From: Fusobacterium mortiferum ATCC 9817
Lineage (GTDB): Bacteria; Fusobacteriota; Fusobacteriia; Fusobacteriales; Fusobacteriaceae
NCBI RefSeq assembly: GCF_000158195.2
Contig: NZ_GL987994.1
Location: 120,343 to 184,342, forward strand
Direction of reading: 5' to 3'
DNA: 64,000 nucleotides
Position numbers and translations under genes: made by a program. The notes below the pieces were generated by a model, which had not been told where the DNA came from, searched no databases, and was given only the letters and a program-made list of their open reading frames with translations. Below are positions 38,616 to 45,713 of the stretch, piece by piece. The stretch's first letter is position 1. The number at the start of each line of letters is the position of its first letter.

Positions 38616-39274
38616 ATTTTGAAAAAAAGTTTGATACATATGATGAGAATGCTCATATTCAAAAATCAGTAGCAGATACTCTAGTGGAGTTTTTAGATGA
38701 GATGGGAGTATCTAAAGAGAGAGAAGTTTTTGAGATAGGATGTGGAACAGGGCTTTTTAGTAAGAGGTTTATAAAAAAGTTTTCTCCTAAGAAAATTATA
38801 TTAAATGATATATATGATGTTGAAAAATATTTAAAAAATGTAAGATATGATGAGTTTATATTGGGAGATATAGAGGAGATAGATATACCTAAGATAGATA
38901 CAACAGTTTCTAGCTCTGTTTTCCAATGGTTGAAAAATTTTTCAAAGAGTATAGAAAAAATAGCACACTCTACAAATGAGTTGGGATTTTCAATGTATAT
39001 AGATGGAAATTTAGAAGAGATAAAGGAGCATTTTGGAATATCTTTAAAGTACCTTACACTGGATAATGTTATTGAAATATTAACTAGCCTTTTTTCTAAA
39101 GTAAAATGGAAAGAGGAAACTATAGAGTTGGAGTTTTCTTCATCAATAGAAGCTCTAAGACATCTAAAAAATACAGGAGTTACAGGATTTGAAAAGAGCT
39201 CTATAAGTAAGGTTAGAAATTATGAGAGCAAGAGCTTAACATATAGAGTTGGATATTTTTATTGTAAAAAATAA
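38612..39274 (+). CDS. bioC: Malonyl-ACP O-methyltransferase
   Basis: BioC methylates malonyl-ACP so that it can enter fatty-acid elongation toward pimelate. The 220 residues carry the SAM-binding motif VFEIGCGTGLFSKRF near residue 41 and an acidic-loop ILNDIYDV, followed by the SSSVFQWLKN segment typical of BioC. It overlaps bioG by 4 nt and is last in the operon, which ends at a strong terminator. Confidence 0.93.
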   Translation: MNFEKKFDTYDENAHIQKSVADTLVEFLDEMGVSKEREVFEIGCGTGLFSKRFIKKFSPKKIILNDIYDVEKYLKNVRYDEFILGDIEEIDIPKIDTTVSSSVFQWLKNFSKSIEKIAHSTNELGFSMYIDGNLEEIKEHFGISLKYLTLDNVIEILTSLFSKVKWKEETIELEFSSSIEALRHLKNTGVTGFEKSSISKVRNYESKSLTYRVGYFYCKK

Positions 39275-39290
39275 AAGTTGCAGGTTATTA

Positions 39291-39340
39291 AAAATTCAAG
39301 AATGACTTTTACCTTTGATGAAAGACATTCTTGAATTTTT
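39291..39340. terminator. Bidirectional terminator after bioC
   Basis: AAAATTCAAGAATG (39291-39304) pairs with CATTCTTGAATTTT (39326-39339), followed by T runs on both strands, between convergent bioC and the Rep_3-like gene. Confidence 0.85.
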
Positions 39341-40459
39341 TTATTTATTTATAAAAAAATTAATCTCAGACTCAGAATCTTTGTTATATTGAACTTTGAT
39401 AGTAAGATTTTTATCTGTCAATAGTAAAGTACCTTGATCTTTTAAGGTATATAACTTTACTAAAAACATATAGGTAGATAATTGAGAAAGATTATTTTTA
39501 TGAAGGTAATGTAAAATTTCTGAGTGTAATTCAAATAAATTTTTAAAAGATTTCTTTAATGTATAATCTGGTTTTCTTTCAATAGATTTTTCAGTAAGTA
39601 GTTTTTTTAAATTTTCTTCAATGTTATCATTGAAATTTTTTAAAACATAATCAACTTTACTTTTAATAAACTCCTCTCCATATTCAGCAAGATTTTTTCT
39701 TAAAAGAGAGTAGATTTCAGAGAAGTTTTTTATATTGTTTCCAAGTTTTAGCATTAAATTATCAATAATTAAAGAGGTATCATTATTTTTTTTAAAATCA
39801 GGATATCCTTTTTTAATAATATTGATACCTAAAATCTTTGCACTTTTATGTTCACCATTTTTTATCTTTTGGTATTCAAGATCAAGTCCACCATTTTTTT
39901 TAATATCTTCTAAAATAGGTAGTAATAAATTTTTTTCAATATCATAAAATCTTTGGTAAGTTTCTCCTATTTCAAGAATCTCTCTCAATTTTTCTAATGG
40001 AATATATATAATCTCCTCTTTAGAGTTATAAATAAACTGATACAATCTATAGGAGAATTTTTCTTCTAAAAATAGTATGTTTCTAAGCCCTAATTTATCA
40101 AAAAAAGAACCATTCTTAAAAGAGCTTGTAATTTCATCTGAAAAAACTAGATATATGATATTATTATTGATATAGTAAGATTGAATAATACTTATACAAG
40201 TAAAATAATTAGTTTCCTTTGATGAAATTATAATATTTTTATTTATTAAATTGTTGAGAAATTTTATAACCTCTTCCTTATCATTTAAAGAGTAGATTTG
40301 AAAAAATTTTAATAGAGGAATATGGTTATATTTTTGTAAATTAATGTGGCGAAATAGTTCTTTATCTTTTTTCGTTAAATGTTTTGTAAAATCTATCTTA
40401 ATATCTCTTCCTAATAATTCAAAATTGAATAGCGAAATTTTATCATTTGTTTCAGCCAT
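39341..40459 (-). CDS. Rep_3-like replication-initiator family winged-helix protein
   Basis: The 372-residue protein resembles plasmid RepB/Rep_3 initiators. An N-terminal winged helix lies at about residues 30-130, then the better conserved second one with FSYRLYQFIYNSKEEI, IYIPLEKLREILEIGETYQR and FYDIEKNLLLPILEDI, followed by a beta hairpin rich in KSAKILGI. These are typical Rep_3 spacing and wording. It is Lys/Asn/Ile-rich like its surroundings. It is flanked by plain chromosomal genes, with no partition, mobilisation or integrase genes, so it may be a chromosomal relic or a repurposed DNA-binding regulator. The ribosome site GGAGGACAATT lies before the ATG. The exact function is not known. 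Confidence 0.6.
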   Translation of the reverse strand: MAETNDKISLFNFELLGRDIKIDFTKHLTKKDKELFRHINLQKYNHIPLLKFFQIYSLNDKEEVIKFLNNLINKNIIISSKETNYFTCISIIQSYYINNNIIYLVFSDEITSSFKNGSFFDKLGLRNILFLEEKFSYRLYQFIYNSKEEIIYIPLEKLREILEIGETYQRFYDIEKNLLLPILEDIKKNGGLDLEYQKIKNGEHKSAKILGINIIKKGYPDFKKNNDTSLIIDNLMLKLGNNIKNFSEIYSLLRKNLAEYGEEFIKSKVDYVLKNFNDNIEENLKKLLTEKSIERKPDYTLKKSFKNLFELHSEILHYLHKNNLSQLSTYMFLVKLYTLKDQGTLLLTDKNLTIKVQYNKDSESEINFFINK

Positions 40460-40514
40460 AATTGTCCTCCAAAAAATTTTTTAGAATTTTTGAATATTTT
40501 AAAAAAAAAAATAA

Positions 40515-40617
40515 AACGAAAATATAGTTATTTTTTTTCGTTATATATGGTAAGTTTACCATTTATTTAGTAAAAAATCAAGAATTTAAAAAATACAAAT
40601 AAAGTTTTTAACGAAAA
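40515..40617. repeat. Repeated AACGAAAA / TTTTCGTT motif upstream of the Rep_3-like gene
   Basis: AACGAAAA at 40515-40522, its inverse TTTTCGTT at 40535-40542, AACGAAAA again at 40610-40617, and another TTTTCGTT inside the gene at 40369-40376. The first two form a stem. These may be binding sites for the adjacent winged-helix protein. With only four copies in very AT-rich DNA, chance remains possible. Confidence 0.4.
40547..40562. promoter_or_regulatory. Palindrome in the divergent promoter region
   Basis: ATGGTAAGTTTACCAT is a perfect 7+7 inverted repeat with a 2-nt centre, about 75 nt upstream of the PTS operon -35 box and between divergent genes. It looks like an operator for a dimeric regulator; the protein is unknown. 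Confidence 0.5.
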
Positions 40618-40637
40618 AAGTTCAAAAAATGTTGAAT

Positions 40638-40666
40638 TTGACTTTTTATAATATATAATATATGAT
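40638..40666 (+). promoter_or_regulatory. Promoter of the glycosylasparaginase-PTS operon
   Basis: TTGACT (40638-40643), 17-nt spacer, TATGAT (40661-40666), about 35 nt before the first ATG. Confidence 0.7.
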
Positions 40667-40699
40667 AAAAATGTAAAAATAAATTTTCTGGAGGTAATG

Positions 40700-41014
40700 A
40701 TGAGTTTAACAATTGAAGAAATAGCTATGACAATAGTAGGAAATGCTGGAGAAGCAAGAAGTTTAGCTTTTGAAGCTCTAAAGGAAGCTAAAGAGGGAAA
40801 TTATGAAAAAGCTAAAAAGTATTTAGAACAATCTAAAGAGAGAAGCTTGGCAGCTCATGAAATGCAAACAGAATTAATATGTAATGAGGCAGATGGAAAC
40901 GGAATAGAGATGAATTTATTAATGGTACACGCTCAAGACCATCTAATGACTTCTATACTAGCAAGAGAATTAATAGAAGAGATGATTACTCTATACAAAA
41001 AATTAGATAAATAA
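40700..41014 (+). CDS. PTS lactose/cellobiose-class EIIA
   Basis: EIIA of the Lac/chitobiose PTS class accepts phosphate from HPr on a histidine and passes it to EIIB. The 104-residue protein, an all-helical trimer in the family, has the active-site region MVHAQDHLMT with His77 and nearby His81. I start it at the second of two adjacent ATGs (40700), 5 nt after GGAGG. Glycosylasparaginase follows 19 nt later, then EIIC and EIIB, so all four genes form one operon. Confidence 0.94.
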   Translation: MSLTIEEIAMTIVGNAGEARSLAFEALKEAKEGNYEKAKKYLEQSKERSLAAHEMQTELICNEADGNGIEMNLLMVHAQDHLMTSILARELIEEMITLYKKLDK

Positions 41015-41033
41015 CTTCTAGGAGGAATGATAA

Positions 41034-41996
41034 ATGAAAAGAGAATGGGGTATGATAGCTACTTGGAGGATGGCAGGAGATGCTATAAAACTAGGGGCTG
41101 AAATATTAAATGAAAAAGGAAAATGTCAAGATGCTGTAGAAAAAGCAATTATGCAAGTAGAGGATTATCCATTTTATAAATCAGTAGGTTATGGAGGACT
41201 TCCAAATGAAGATTGTGAAGTTGAGTTAGATGCAGCTTTTATGGATGGAAAAACTCTTTCTATTGGTGCTGTTGCTGGAATAAGAGATTATAAAAATCCT
41301 GTTTCTATTGCTAGGAAATTAAGTGAAGATAAATTTAATATATTTTTAGTGGGAGCAGGTGCAGAAGCTTATGCACATAAAAATGGTTTTGTTAGGCAAA
41401 ATATGTTAACAGAGAGAGCTAAAAAAACTTGGGAGAAAAGAAAAAAGGAGATCTATGAAAAAAATCTTTCTCCATATGATGGACATGATACTGTATGTAT
41501 GATAGCTCTAGATAAAGAGAGTGATATGGCAGCGGCAACTTCTACAAGTGGATTATTTATGAAGAAAAGAGGTAGAGTAGGAGATTCACCTGTTTCTGGA
41601 TCAGGTTTCTATGTAAATAATGATATTGGTGGAGCAGCAGCTACAGGACTTGGAGAAGATATTATGAAGGGATGTCTATCTTATGAAGTAGTACAAAGAA
41701 TGAAAAAAGGAGAGCATCCACAAGAGGCGGCTCAAGGAGCAGTAATGGATTTTACTGAAGAATTAAAAAAGAGAAGGGGTCATGCTGGGGCAATTTCTAT
41801 AATAGCACTAAATAATAAAGGTGAGTGGGGAATAGGAACAAATGTAGAATTTACTTTTGCAGCAGCTACTTCTGATGAAAAACCACAAGTCTACATTGCT
41901 AATCCAATTGAAGGAACTAGAAACGTAAAAATAGAGGCTATTTCTCAAGAGTATATGGAAGAGTATAAAAAAAGTATTCAAAAACCAATAGAATAA
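41034..41996 (+). CDS. N4-(beta-N-acetylglucosaminyl)-L-asparaginase (glycosylasparaginase)
   Basis: Glycosylasparaginases cleave the bond between Asn and GlcNAc, the core link of N-glycoproteins. They are Ntn hydrolases that autoprocess before a catalytic Thr. The 320-residue protein has that Thr at 153 in DGHDTVCMIALD, then RVGDSPVSGSGFYVNNDIGGAAATGLGEDIM, split here as GRVGDSPVSGSG and GGAAATGLGEDIM, which is the substrate-binding core. There is no signal peptide, so it works in the cytoplasm. It is embedded between EIIA and EIIC genes, so its substrate probably enters through that PTS, possibly phosphorylated on the sugar. The expected products are aspartate and GlcNAc (or GlcNAc-6-phosphate). 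Confidence 0.9.
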   Translation: MKREWGMIATWRMAGDAIKLGAEILNEKGKCQDAVEKAIMQVEDYPFYKSVGYGGLPNEDCEVELDAAFMDGKTLSIGAVAGIRDYKNPVSIARKLSEDKFNIFLVGAGAEAYAHKNGFVRQNMLTERAKKTWEKRKKEIYEKNLSPYDGHDTVCMIALDKESDMAAATSTSGLFMKKRGRVGDSPVSGSGFYVNNDIGGAAATGLGEDIMKGCLSYEVVQRMKKGEHPQEAAQGAVMDFTEELKKRRGHAGAISIIALNNKGEWGIGTNVEFTFAAATSDEKPQVYIANPIEGTRNVKIEAISQEYMEEYKKSIQKPIE

Positions 41997-42018
41997 TTAT
42001 ATAATATAGGGAGGACAA

Positions 42019-43305
42019 ATGAATAGATTAATCAGCATATTAGAAGAAAAATTAGTACCAGTTGCTGCTTGGATTGAGCAAAATAAATATATTAATGGAA
42101 TTAGAAGAGCATTTATAATGTTAATGCCACTTCTTATGATAGGGTCTTTATTTTTAATGATTCAAGCTTTTCCATTACCAGCTTATCAAAGAGGTATGGC
42201 AAGCTTACTTGGAGAAAATTGGAAAGATATATTTGATATCCCTGTAAATACTACATTCTCAATGTTGGCTGTATATATATCTTTTTTAGTAGCTCAACAA
42301 CTAGCTAAACAATTTGACTTAGATAGTATAGCAGTAGGACTTTTATCAATGGCATCATTTTTAATTCTTACTCCACTAGGAAAAACAGCAGAGTTTGGAA
42401 ATGTTATAACATTTGAGTGGTTAGGAAGTAAAGGAATGTTTATAGCTATGTTAATAGGTGTGGCAACAGTTATAATATTTAGATTTTTTATTCAAAAAAA
42501 TATCTTAGTAAAAATGCCTGAGGGAGTTCCACCTGAAGTAATTAGATCTTTTGAAGCTCTTATTCCAGGTGCTGTAATATTAACATTAGCATTACTTTTA
42601 AGAGTGGGAATGGAGCATACATCTTTTGGAACAATTCATGATTTTGTATATAAAGTTTTAGCTGTACCATTAAAATCACTGGGAACTTCTTATATAGGTT
42701 CAATGTTTACTGTTTTAGCTATATCAGTTTTATGGTCAGTAGGTATCAATAGTGGTTCTATGGTAAATGGAATAGTAAGACCTTTCTGGTTAGAGAATCA
42801 AGTGGAAAATATAGCTGCTATGCAAGCTGGTCAACCATTACCACATGTTATAACAGAACAATTCTTTGATATGATATGGATGGGAGGAGCTGGAGCTACT
42901 CTATCATTACTACTAGCTATAATTATTTTTGCTAAGAGTAAACATATAAGAGCAGTAGGAGAGATTGGAGCTGTACCAGGACTATTTAATATTAATGAAC
43001 CAGTATTATTTGGATTACCTATAATATTAAATCCTATAATGTTAATTCCTTTTAATATTATTCCATTAGTAATGGTAACTACTCAATATATAGCTATGAC
43101 AATAGGAATTGTTTCTAGACCAATTGGAATAGCTTTCCCATGGCCTACTCCAGCCGTGATTAGTGGATTTTTAACAGTAGGGGATATCTCTGGTTCTATT
43201 ATGCAAATAGTTAATCTGATAATAGGTGCAATGATATATCTGCCATTTTTAAGAATCTTAGATAAGGCAGCTAAGAAGGAAGAGGAAACAAATTCAGAGG
43301 AATAA
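42019..43305 (+). CDS. PTS lactose/cellobiose-class EIIC permease
   Basis: This 428-residue membrane protein with about ten hydrophobic segments is the sugar channel of a cellobiose/chitobiose-class PTS. Visible family features are RRAFIMLMPLLMIGSLFLMI near residue 28-48, NSGSMVNGIVRPFWLENQ near 245 and GLFNINEPVLFGLPIILNP near 320 with the conserved Glu of NEP. It follows the glycosylasparaginase gene by 22 nt. Family members carry beta-glucosides, chitobiose or lactose; here the neighbour suggests a glycosylated amino acid or its sugar part. Confidence 0.93.
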   Translation: MNRLISILEEKLVPVAAWIEQNKYINGIRRAFIMLMPLLMIGSLFLMIQAFPLPAYQRGMASLLGENWKDIFDIPVNTTFSMLAVYISFLVAQQLAKQFDLDSIAVGLLSMASFLILTPLGKTAEFGNVITFEWLGSKGMFIAMLIGVATVIIFRFFIQKNILVKMPEGVPPEVIRSFEALIPGAVILTLALLLRVGMEHTSFGTIHDFVYKVLAVPLKSLGTSYIGSMFTVLAISVLWSVGINSGSMVNGIVRPFWLENQVENIAAMQAGQPLPHVITEQFFDMIWMGGAGATLSLLLAIIIFAKSKHIRAVGEIGAVPGLFNINEPVLFGLPIILNPIMLIPFNIIPLVMVTTQYIAMTIGIVSRPIGIAFPWPTPAVISGFLTVGDISGSIMQIVNLIIGAMIYLPFLRILDKAAKKEEETNSEE

Positions 43306-43326
43306 TTTTAAGGAGAGTGTTTAATT

Positions 43327-43632
43327 ATGAAAAAAATATTATTACTTTGTGCAGCTGGGATGTCAACAAGTTTAATGGTTAAGAAGATGACAGAAGCAGC
43401 AGAGAAAAAAGGAATAGAAGTTGAAATAAAAGCTATTGGACTTGAAAAATTTCAAGAGAACTTAGATACTTACGATGTTTTTCTATTAGGACCTCAAGTA
43501 AAATATAAAAAAGCTGAGCTAGAGAAGATAGCAGCTACAGTTGGAAAAAAAGTAGAGGTAATCAATACTGTTGATTATGGAATGATGAGAGGAGATAAAG
43601 TTTTAGACTTTGCTCTTGGATTGATGGGATAA
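43327..43632 (+). CDS. PTS lactose/cellobiose-class EIIB
   Basis: This 101-residue soluble subunit has the phospho-accepting Cys8 in KKILLLCAAGMSTSLM, which receives phosphate from EIIA and gives it to the sugar during transport. Length and fold features match CelA/ChbB proteins. It is last in the operon, followed by a strong terminator. Confidence 0.95.
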   Translation: MKKILLLCAAGMSTSLMVKKMTEAAEKKGIEVEIKAIGLEKFQENLDTYDVFLLGPQVKYKKAELEKIAATVGKKVEVINTVDYGMMRGDKVLDFALGLMG

Positions 43633-43644
43633 TATATTAATTAT

Positions 43645-43688
43645 AAAGAGGTTGTTGTATAAAGTTTTGCAATAACCTCTTTCTTTTT
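43645..43688 (+). terminator. Terminator of the glycosylasparaginase-PTS operon
   Basis: AAAGAGGTTGTTG (43645-43657) pairs with CAATAACCTCTTT (one G-U), followed by CTTTTT. It closes the four-gene operon. Confidence 0.8.
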
Positions 43689-43701
43689 AGAGGGAGGTAT
43701 T

Positions 43702-45093
43702 ATGATAAAAGAATATATTGAGAATAACTTTGAGAAGATATTATCAGATATAGTAGAGATAATAAAGATAAAAACAGTTAAGGAAAAAGCTACAGGAGAT
43801 GCTCCTTTTGGAAAAAACTTAAAATATGGTTTAGAGAAGACTCTAGAGATAGCTAAAAAATTGGGATTCAGAGTTAAAAATTTAGATAACTATGTAGGTT
43901 ATGCAGAGATTGGAGAGGGAGATGAGTATATTGCTATATTAGGACACATAGATGTAGTTCCAGAGGGAGATATTTCTAAGTGGAGTGTTAATCCTTATGG
44001 TGGAGAGATAAGAGATAATCTATTGATAGCTAGAGGAGCTATTGATAATAAAGGACCTATTATTTCTTCTCTTTACTCTATAAAAGCTATATTAGAAGAG
44101 AACCCTGGTTTTAATAAAAGAGTTAGAATAATTTTTGGAACAAATGAGGAGAGTGGAGATGAGGATATAAAATACTATCTTGCTTGTGAAAAGGCTCCTA
44201 AATATGCTTTTACCCCAGATGGAAGATTTCCAGTAATTTTTTCTGAAAAGGGAATATATACTTTTTCCTTTAGAAAGATGATAAATTGGAATAAAACAGA
44301 AGTATTAGAGATAGAAGCTGGTACAAGATCAAATGTAGTTCCAGAGTTAGGAAGAATAGTATTTAAAAACTCGATTCTTCCAAGATTAGATAAGGGGTTA
44401 GAAAGTGTAGGCAAAATATCAAAATGTAGTTTTAATGTAAAAAATAATGGAGATAAAGTAGAAGTTTTTATTGATGGTAAAGCAGCTCATGCAAGTTCGC
44501 CAGAGAGAGGTATAAATTCTATCTTAGGAATGTATCTATTTTTAAATGAGATTTTAGAAGAAGATGATTCTTTGAAAAAATTTGCTAAATTTATGTCAAA
44601 TTATGTTGGAGAAACAACAGATGGAAAATTATTAGGAATTGAAAGTGAAAATAAAGAAACTGGAGATTTGACTATTAGTGCAGGAATAACTAAAAGAATA
44701 GATGATTTTATATCTGTAAAATTTAATATTAGATATCCAGTATCAACTACAGAGAAAATTTTAGATGAAACATTAGGTAAAAGGGCTAAAGAAAATAGAG
44801 TAATTTTCTTTAAGGAGAATCATAATCCAACACTATATTTTTCAAAAGATTCAGTATTAGTTAAAACTTTACAAGACACATATAGAGAGATAACAGGAAG
44901 AGATGAGGAACCAGCAGCTTTAGGTGGAGGAACTTATGCTAAACTTATGCCTAACACAGTAGCTTTTGGACCTAATTATAAAGAATTTAAAGGAAATCCA
45001 CATAGTTTTGATGAGTGTATGGATTTGAATATGTTAAAAATAGGAATAGAAATTTATGCTAAGGCTGTACTTAGATTGAGTGAGTATATTTAA
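43702..45093 (+). CDS. pepV: M20-family dipeptidase, PepV/Sapep type
   Basis: A cytoplasmic zinc peptidase of 463 residues that hydrolyses dipeptides or short peptides. Metal-binding and catalytic segments are clear: ILGHIDVVPEGD near residue 80, ARGAIDNKGP near 112, GTNEESGDED near 146, and a late HSFDECMD near 438. The lid domain lies between. It follows the PTS operon terminator by about 15 nt and precedes cutC by 11 nt. An amino-acid fermenting organism would use it to supply free amino acids. Confidence 0.9.
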   Translation: MIKEYIENNFEKILSDIVEIIKIKTVKEKATGDAPFGKNLKYGLEKTLEIAKKLGFRVKNLDNYVGYAEIGEGDEYIAILGHIDVVPEGDISKWSVNPYGGEIRDNLLIARGAIDNKGPIISSLYSIKAILEENPGFNKRVRIIFGTNEESGDEDIKYYLACEKAPKYAFTPDGRFPVIFSEKGIYTFSFRKMINWNKTEVLEIEAGTRSNVVPELGRIVFKNSILPRLDKGLESVGKISKCSFNVKNNGDKVEVFIDGKAAHASSPERGINSILGMYLFLNEILEEDDSLKKFAKFMSNYVGETTDGKLLGIESENKETGDLTISAGITKRIDDFISVKFNIRYPVSTTEKILDETLGKRAKENRVIFFKENHNPTLYFSKDSVLVKTLQDTYREITGRDEEPAALGGGTYAKLMPNTVAFGPNYKEFKGNPHSFDECMDLNMLKIGIEIYAKAVLRLSEYI

Positions 45094-45104
45094 AGGAGGC
45101 GTTT

Positions 45105-45713
45105 ATGATAAGGGAAAAATGTATAGGAAGTTTTTTAGAGGCTCTTGAAGCTCAAGAGTTAGGAGCAGAGAGAGTAGAGCTTTGTGATAATTTAACTGAA
45201 GGAGGAACTACTCCATCTTATGGAACAATAAAAATGGTAGTTGAAAAATTGAATATTCCAGCTTTTGTAATTATTAGACCAAGAGGAGGAGATTTTTACT
45301 ATACTCCTGAGGAGATAGAGATTATGAAAGAGGATATTAAGATTTGTAAAGAGTTAGGAGTAAAGGGAGTAGTAATAGGAGCACTAAATAGAGATAATAC
45401 TATCAATTATGATGCTATCAAAGATATGATAGATTTAGCTAAACCAATGTCTATAACTTTTCATAAAGCAATAGATGAGTTAGAAAATCCTGTGACAGAA
45501 GTAAAAAAATTAGCAAACTTAGGAGTGAATAGAATACTTACTTCTGGGACAAAGGAAACAGCATTAGAAGGGGAAAATATTTTGAGAGAGATGATAAAAG
45601 AAGCTGGAGAAGATATAATCATCATAGTAGCTGGAAAAGTTACTAAGGATAATTTAAATGAGATATCTAATCTTATTCCTGCTAAAGAGTATCACGGAAA
45701 GAAAATAGTTTAA
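45105..45713 (+). CDS. cutC: CutC family protein
   Basis: The 202-residue TIM-barrel protein matches CutC: MIREKCIGSFLEALEAQELG, RVELCDNLTEGGTTPSYG and FVIIRPRGGDFYYT are the hallmark segments. CutC was first linked to copper homeostasis in E. coli; a direct role in copper handling is not well established. It is co-directional with the M20 peptidase and 11 nt behind it, with a GGAGGCG site. Confidence 0.93.
   Translation: MIREKCIGSFLEALEAQELGAERVELCDNLTEGGTTPSYGTIKMVVEKLNIPAFVIIRPRGGDFYYTPEEIEIMKEDIKICKELGVKGVVIGALNRDNTINYDAIKDMIDLAKPMSITFHKAIDELENPVTEVKKLANLGVNRILTSGTKETALEGENILREMIKEAGEDIIIIVAGKVTKDNLNEISNLIPAKEYHGKKIV

Follow-up and report, generated by a model that had tools for sequence, protein, structure and literature searches.

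A Rep_3-fold protein as a probable local regulator of neighbouring PTS operons in Fusobacteriota

The window, a stretch of 64,000 nucleotides from Fusobacterium mortiferum ATCC 9817 (contig NZ_GL987994.1), contains at positions 39341-40459, on the minus strand, a gene for a 372-aa protein with a Rep_3 fold (ORF list, Pfam, PHROGs and predicted structure). The gene is flanked by bioC-like and PTS IIA genes, which agrees with an original prediction that had placed it between biotin and PTS operons. Between the bioC-like gene and this gene, which we refer to as the regulator gene, lies a 20-bp hairpin (39290-39340; 95% complementary) with a T run, and this is likely the terminator of both.

On the other side, the presumed target operon begins with the PTS IIA gene (40697-41014, plus strand; lactose/cellobiose family, PF02255, 120.3 bits), which is followed on the same strand by genes for a glycosylasparaginase-like hydrolase (41034-41996; PF01112; PDB 1p4k, a glycosylasparaginase, E 1.2e-56), a lactose/cellobiose-family PTS IIC (42019-43305; TIGR00410, 426 bits) and a IIB of that family (43327-43632; TIGR00853, 107.6 bits, just below the cut-off of 110). 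A PepV-like dipeptidase gene (43702-45093), which adjoins the operon in relatives too, and a CutC-like gene (45105-45713), found in some relatives, continue on the plus strand. The closest solved structures to the product of 41034-41996 are glycosylasparaginases, and the genes of 40697-45713 might serve to take up GlcNAc-Asn or other glycoasparagines. The F. mortiferum genome has only 16 PTS_EIIC genes.

The association of the two divergent units extends beyond this genome. In relatives the regulator gene is kept with the PTS operon and the biotin side is not conserved; the original prediction had seen the PTS neighbour, and had called for a check of the locus across species, but missed that the PTS link is the point of the locus. 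The glycosylasparaginase-like gene occurs in 17 of 61 Fusobacteriaceae genomes, and in 15 of the 17 a member of the regulator's family lies, by coordinates, within about 2.5 kb on the same contig. In genome G022 the two genes are on separate contigs, and in G011 the glycosylasparaginase-like gene has no regulator beside it, having a different upstream neighbour in a region where the contig ends. In G009 the coding sequence of the glycosylasparaginase-like enzyme is broken into two frames.

The intergenic region between the regulator and PTS genes (40460-40696; 237 bp) is as AT-rich as had been described, with 15.6% GC compared to 30.1% for the window. The motif AACGAAAA is present in five copies in the window, four of them at 40369-40617, where the expectation for the whole window is 0.84 and 0 of 100 shuffles reach five. 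Three copies are intergenic, and the region's three CG dinucleotides each fall within one of them. These three bear out the repeated sites of the original prediction, although the copy at 40369, which is in coding sequence, is left uncounted because AACGAAAA does not recur where the coding sequence begins in two related loci (L003 and L004). The intergenic copies form an exact dyad at 40515-40542, with arms AACGAAAA and TTTTCGTT 12 bp apart, and a single plus-strand AACGAAAA site at 40610-40617, with its ACGA core at 40611-40614. A run of 11 A residues, also noted previously, is present at 40501-40511, between the dyad and the regulator start codon. The pattern AACGAN{18,19}TCGTT is found once in the 2.67-Mb genome, at the window locus, and a control pattern read backwards is found nine times.

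Both sites can be positioned with respect to predicted promoters. The putative regulator promoter (40553-40581, minus strand) consists of TTGATT (40576-40581) and TAAACT (40553-40558) separated by 17 bp, with a start near 40546, and orthologues look alike; the dyad would thus occupy +5 to +32 and is the predicted operator of this promoter. For the PTS operon, inspection suggests a promoter at 40638-40666 on the plus strand, with TTGACT (40638-40643) and TATGAT (40661-40666), again 17 bp apart, and a start near 40673. The core of the single site is then at about -62 to -59, and its position relative to the -35 box is alike in relatives. An RNA element at the locus was rejected, as Rfam gives no match within 39200-41100.

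The 372-aa protein was originally taken for a plasmid-type Rep_3 protein, and this assignment holds. Pfam Rep3_C matches residues 155-202 with 34.6 bits (cut-off 21.1) and PHROGs places the protein in a replication-initiation family, while the Rep_3 N-terminal Pfam model is not listed at E<=1. A full-length AlphaFold2 model, based on an alignment of 17 genus relatives (mean pLDDT 81.5, pTM 0.66), has RepE of plasmid F as its top Foldseek matches (E 6.6e-7). In VIA-align it superposes with Z 12.4 over 198 residues on 2z9o_A, the RepE dimer on its operator, with Z 11.4 on Pi of R6K, and with Z 5.9 on RctB of Vibrio chromosome 2, which has a related domain arrangement. The fold comparison proposed with the original prediction therefore comes out in favour of RepE/Pi, with two tandem winged-helix domains of this type in residues 21-221 (39797-40399, minus strand; Z about 12). 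A PDB sequence match to 1npy was taken as chance. Within the recognition domain, Y168, R170 and D173 are invariant in all 54 family cluster representatives, and the motif Y.R.[YF]D of the second winged helix (WH2) is present at 133/133 family loci.

The window protein differs from RepE and Pi in having about 150 additional C-terminal residues with no solved-fold match. This domain (residues 222-372; 39344-39796, minus strand) is a candidate sensor or oligomerisation module. When modelled alone with 43 relatives it reaches a pLDDT of 90.3, and the model has four helices followed by a strand, two helices and three strands. No PDB match was found at E<=0.001 (the best has a Z of only 5.3), there is no significant match in the PDB or in BFVD, and no Pfam family recurs in this domain among the 43 members. 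The top rows, a Ragulator/roadblock-like fold and Cyt1Aa, were rejected as too weak to name a fold. Some members are shorter, at about 240-310 aa (L085, L086, L116, L117, L119-L121, L123-L126), with a large share of the central helices missing; the last 80 profile residues are still matched by several of these, so that the C-terminus looks modular. The family alignment contains no conserved His or Cys, with no His column exceeding a third of the rows, and a phosphorylation switch is therefore not supported.

Local regulators of PTS operons are known from several families, namely the BglG/LicT/MtlR proteins with PRD domains and the LacI, DeoR and GntR types. These likewise adjoin, and presumably control, one PTS operon, but the window protein has a different fold, no conserved His site, and no PRD or other such regulator domain in Pfam.

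A chromosomal origin of replication, cryptic and accompanied by its initiator, could likewise combine a Rep_3 fold with an AT-rich, repeat-containing region and an A tract; a cryptic origin was one of three readings offered originally. We consider this extremely improbable. Unlike RepE and Pi, the family has no iteron array and is chromosomal, multi-copy and PTS-linked. Tandem iterons, defined as three ACGA/TCGT cores in the same orientation at 18-24 bp, are found in 0 of 127 loci, and a repeat search of the window region yields no iteron-like repeat family. The DnaA box was searched in its exact form only, and exact TTATNCACA is absent from the intergenic region (40460-40696). Moreover, one chromosome can carry several copies, each of them adjoining a PTS operon. 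The origin at which RctB acts has many sites (PMC5395669), and there is no such site array at the window locus.

A second reading, that the gene is a relic of an integrated plasmid without present function, bears on how the family is distributed. A single-protein search of the genus gives matches in 10 of 12 genomes, and an alignment search gives matches in 39 of 61 genomes of Fusobacteriaceae and, among the matches listed, in 58 of 98 genomes of the phylum, weak plasmid Reps being included in both counts. A named genome collection gave no match to the single-protein query, and all 17 loci retrieved from it by the alignment query belong to Fusobacteriota, in a scan limited to sequences that contain one short motif. 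F. mortiferum has a second family copy, and among the matches listed a genome can have up to 10, in separate places and beside different PTS operons. In three genomes of one genus (G087, G088 and G090, among loci L159-L211) there are 8-10 copies each among the matches listed, and those assigned by Pfam are beside sorbitol-, mannose-, fructose- and lactose-type PTS genes, the others being recognised by sequence start only. The frames are intact beside the same operon in eight genus genomes, with a ninth cut by a contig end, and the invariant residues and conserved sites described here likewise argue against loss of function. The fold family is indeed plasmid-borne and a few copies are broken (L079 and L197), but partition or mobilisation genes are not recognised beside the regulator gene, just as the original prediction had remarked of plasmid genes generally. 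Overall, a functionless relic seems hardly credible.

Nor is the window gene on a plasmid itself: its neighbours are biotin and PTS genes, and copies in related genomes (G007-G010) are on contigs of 3.3-4.0 Mb. A tblastn search with the window protein for a plasmid or phage origin returned no phage record and 15 plasmid records, all with less than 80% query coverage; no relative was found on a viral contig. The best plasmid record, a 664-kb Cetobacterium somerae plasmid, carries a family member (L212, 5593-6825; NZ_CP143320.1) that lies beside a mannose-type PTS operon and is publicly annotated as ‘replication initiation protein’, likely a mislabel; three other records that were examined are plasmid Reps. 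Plasmid Rep_3 proteins of Fusobacteriota (L132-L139) are related to the family by profile (E 9.3e-7 to 7.4e-23), and one of them (L132) has the motif Y.RFYD.E in common with it. Unlike the PTS-linked family, plasmid Reps have ParA-like neighbours (L133, L134) or are on small contigs. The phylogeny suggested along with the original prediction places the 54 family clusters on one side of the tree and 11 plasmid Reps on the other; the dividing branch has a support of only 14, so that the tree does not establish a single origin of the family.

For the analysis of gene neighbours we used 133 family loci, of which 80 are from Fusobacteriaceae and 53 from Leptotrichiaceae; many of the sampled genomes are drafts. 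The Leptotrichiaceae set comprises the loci among the matches listed, minus G093:C1 (E 2.9e-11). Loci L132-L139, judged to be plasmid Reps by weak scores and neighbours (L139 has E 7.4e-23), were excluded before counting, as were a fragment (L018/L141), weak or partial matches (e.g., G015:C69, G015:C169, G043:C21, G034:C3 and G013:C10) and genome G062, which belongs to another bacterial family. Grouping at 60% identity gives 54 clusters (36 Fusobacteriaceae, 18 Leptotrichiaceae).

A divergent gene is in view in 31 of the 36 Fusobacteriaceae clusters, three others being at a contig edge and two (L127 and L131) divergent to nothing. By Pfam, the first divergent gene encodes a PTS subunit in 25 of the 31, and the types, derived per protein from Pfam family counts and gene lengths, are seven IIA-lac, eight IIB, five EIIC, three EIIA-man and two fructose-type. 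In the other six this gene codes for a GH1 protein (three clusters), an ABC binding protein (two) or an amidohydrolase belonging to an SFCGS/DUF4310-type gene cluster (one). In Leptotrichiaceae, where 17 of 18 clusters have a divergent gene in view (one is at a contig edge), it encodes a PTS subunit in 14. This makes 39 of 48 cluster representatives overall, the window locus included, and 42 of 48 if the first two divergent genes are considered (adding L123, L124 and L174, the last assigned partly from the sequence start of the neighbour). Of the six without a PTS gene in the first two, two have ABC transporters, two have SFCGS/DUF4310-type clusters, one has a GH1 gene and one a SelA-like gene. 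Nine loci (L024, L034-L036, L074, L140 and L163-L165) are beside SFCGS/DUF4310-type transport clusters that include a PRD-like protein. Across the phylum Fusobacteriota, the protein appears to be a gene switch located beside sugar-uptake genes.

The dyad, whose spacing amounts to about two helical turns, recurs upstream of family genes. Upstream of the 80 Fusobacteriaceae copies, counting ACGA...TCGT pairs within 4-60 bp, 40 of 54 pairs are 22 or 23 bp apart (23 at 22, 17 at 23), and there are three everted pairs. The Leptotrichiaceae set, retrieved later, has 44 of 57 pairs at 21-23 bp, along with 17 everted pairs, ten of them at 51 bp. Among the 50 cluster representatives with 300 bp of upstream sequence (four of the 54 are shorter and were excluded), 23 have the dyad at 21-23 bp and 27 do not, whereas 300 dinucleotide shuffles give 0.13 on average and at most 3. 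The dyad starts 8-12 bp past a -10-like box at 38 of 63 loci (15 of 24 clusters). In some representatives without a dyad or phased site there are instead direct repeats, spaced by about 52 bp. At six loci (L102, L104, L105 and L109-L111) two same-orientation TTTCGTCTATTTT-like sites at about this distance replace the dyad, and these may represent a second operator layout. The preference around the core is TTTTCGTY; since TCGT was the search criterion, only the flanking preference is informative.

The single site on the PTS side is similarly constrained. Distances were measured from GTCAA, which is the PTS -35 box TTGAC on the opposite strand, and in both bacterial families TCGT is mostly 28/29 or 16/19 bp away. 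Given the usual placement of a -35 box, 28/29 bp corresponds to -59 to -62, and 16/19 bp is about one turn nearer, at about -50. Such a site is present at 27-30 or 15-20 bp in 29 of the 50 representatives (shuffle mean 0.15, maximum 2) and absent in the other 21. In the 133 upstream regions, which contain 129 GTCAA, there are 62 occurrences at 27-30 bp, 23 at 15-20 bp and 74 dyad counts. As a control, 202 other intergenic regions of the same loci were read on both strands (404 strand-regions, in which each dyad counts on both), and their 81 GTCAA give one occurrence at 27-30 bp, none at 15-20 bp and four dyad counts. The ranges of 21-23, 27-30 and 15-20 bp were chosen after inspection of the data, and only the dyad spacing was tested afterwards on the second family. 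The distance from the PTS-side to the regulator-side core is about 52, 73, 85, 94 or 116 bp in most of 29 clusters, and at a period of 10.5 bp the helical register of these clusters has R = 0.67, a value reached by 0 of 5000 uniform draws; because the clusters are related, this is suggestive rather than exact.

From their co-location we infer that the 372-aa protein binds both the dyad and the single site. Pairing by co-location would also permit the sites to be those of some other, unlinked transcription factor, with the Rep-like protein doing something else. This we judge quite unlikely, because the dyad pattern is nearly exclusive to upstream regions of the family (in the 12 genus genomes AACGAN{18,19}TCGTT occurs at 11 places, and by coordinates nine are directly upstream of family genes, the other two being G001:C3 and G006:C137) and because the sites accompany the family's genes next to different PTS types and in both bacterial families. 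Motif copies persist in relatives, at fixed spacings; their absence there would have counted against the original prediction. The best explanation as a whole, and probably the correct one, is that the Rep_3-fold DNA-binding protein is a local transcription factor for the PTS operon, which corresponds to the third of the original readings, an initiator-like regulator, and is supported by the PTS linkage and the conserved site spacings. That the regulator is dedicated to the neighbouring PTS operon is the firmest part of this reading, and we regard it as very probable.

Whether the effect on the PTS operon is positive or negative is a separate matter, and here activation appears the better choice, with reasonable though not strong confidence. 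Class I activators act from a position near -60, and binding of the regulator near -60 would recruit RNA polymerase to the PTS promoter. At its own promoter, a dimer on the dyad may repress the regulator gene, by analogy with RepE on F. According to PMC13028717, RepE has an inverted-repeat operator at its own promoter, where dimers repress at inverted repeats between the promoter and the gene, and the window dyad is similarly placed. The C-terminal domain could sense sugar, a sugar phosphate or PTS activity, and in the window the target would be the lactose/cellobiose-type PTS with the glycosylasparaginase-like enzyme, possibly for GlcNAc-Asn.

Since the dyad and the single site are in helical register, one bridging complex may set the switch, and a loop between the two sites is possible. 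A repression loop would also be consistent with the site near -60, and the protein might instead repress the PTS operon: a dimer or loop joining the dyad to the -60 site would keep both promoters closed until it is released by an inducer. The register of the sites over about 5 to 11 turns and the location of the dyad at the regulator's own start site are compatible with such an arrangement, and Rep proteins are described as blocking transcription via loops in PMC13028717. However, the PTS-side site is fixed upstream of the -35 box and not over the promoter, which is more usual for an activator, and we consider a repressor a distinctly less likely, if serious, possibility.

In the literature searched, where subscription papers are mostly outside coverage, we found no description of a Rep_3-type PTS regulator. 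An evolutionary account of the locus, for which we see roughly even chances, is that a plasmid initiator was domesticated early in Fusobacteriota and diversified into one-component PTS regulators, which form a large class specific to the phylum. The dimer/monomer and looping switch of the initiator would have been kept, so that a dimer on the dyad represses and a half-site contact at -60 activates, and a new C-terminal sensor would have been added; paralogues would share the TCGT core, each serving its own operon. If the regulator model is true, a class of genes annotated as ‘replication initiation protein’ would turn out to be sugar regulators, and a major group of these in Fusobacteriota, with 8-10 copies in some genomes (among the matches listed). 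Annotation and plasmid typing would be corrected, and the operon controlled by each copy would be predictable. The family would then offer a case of a replication initiator turned metabolic transcription factor, with candidate DNA sites already in hand.
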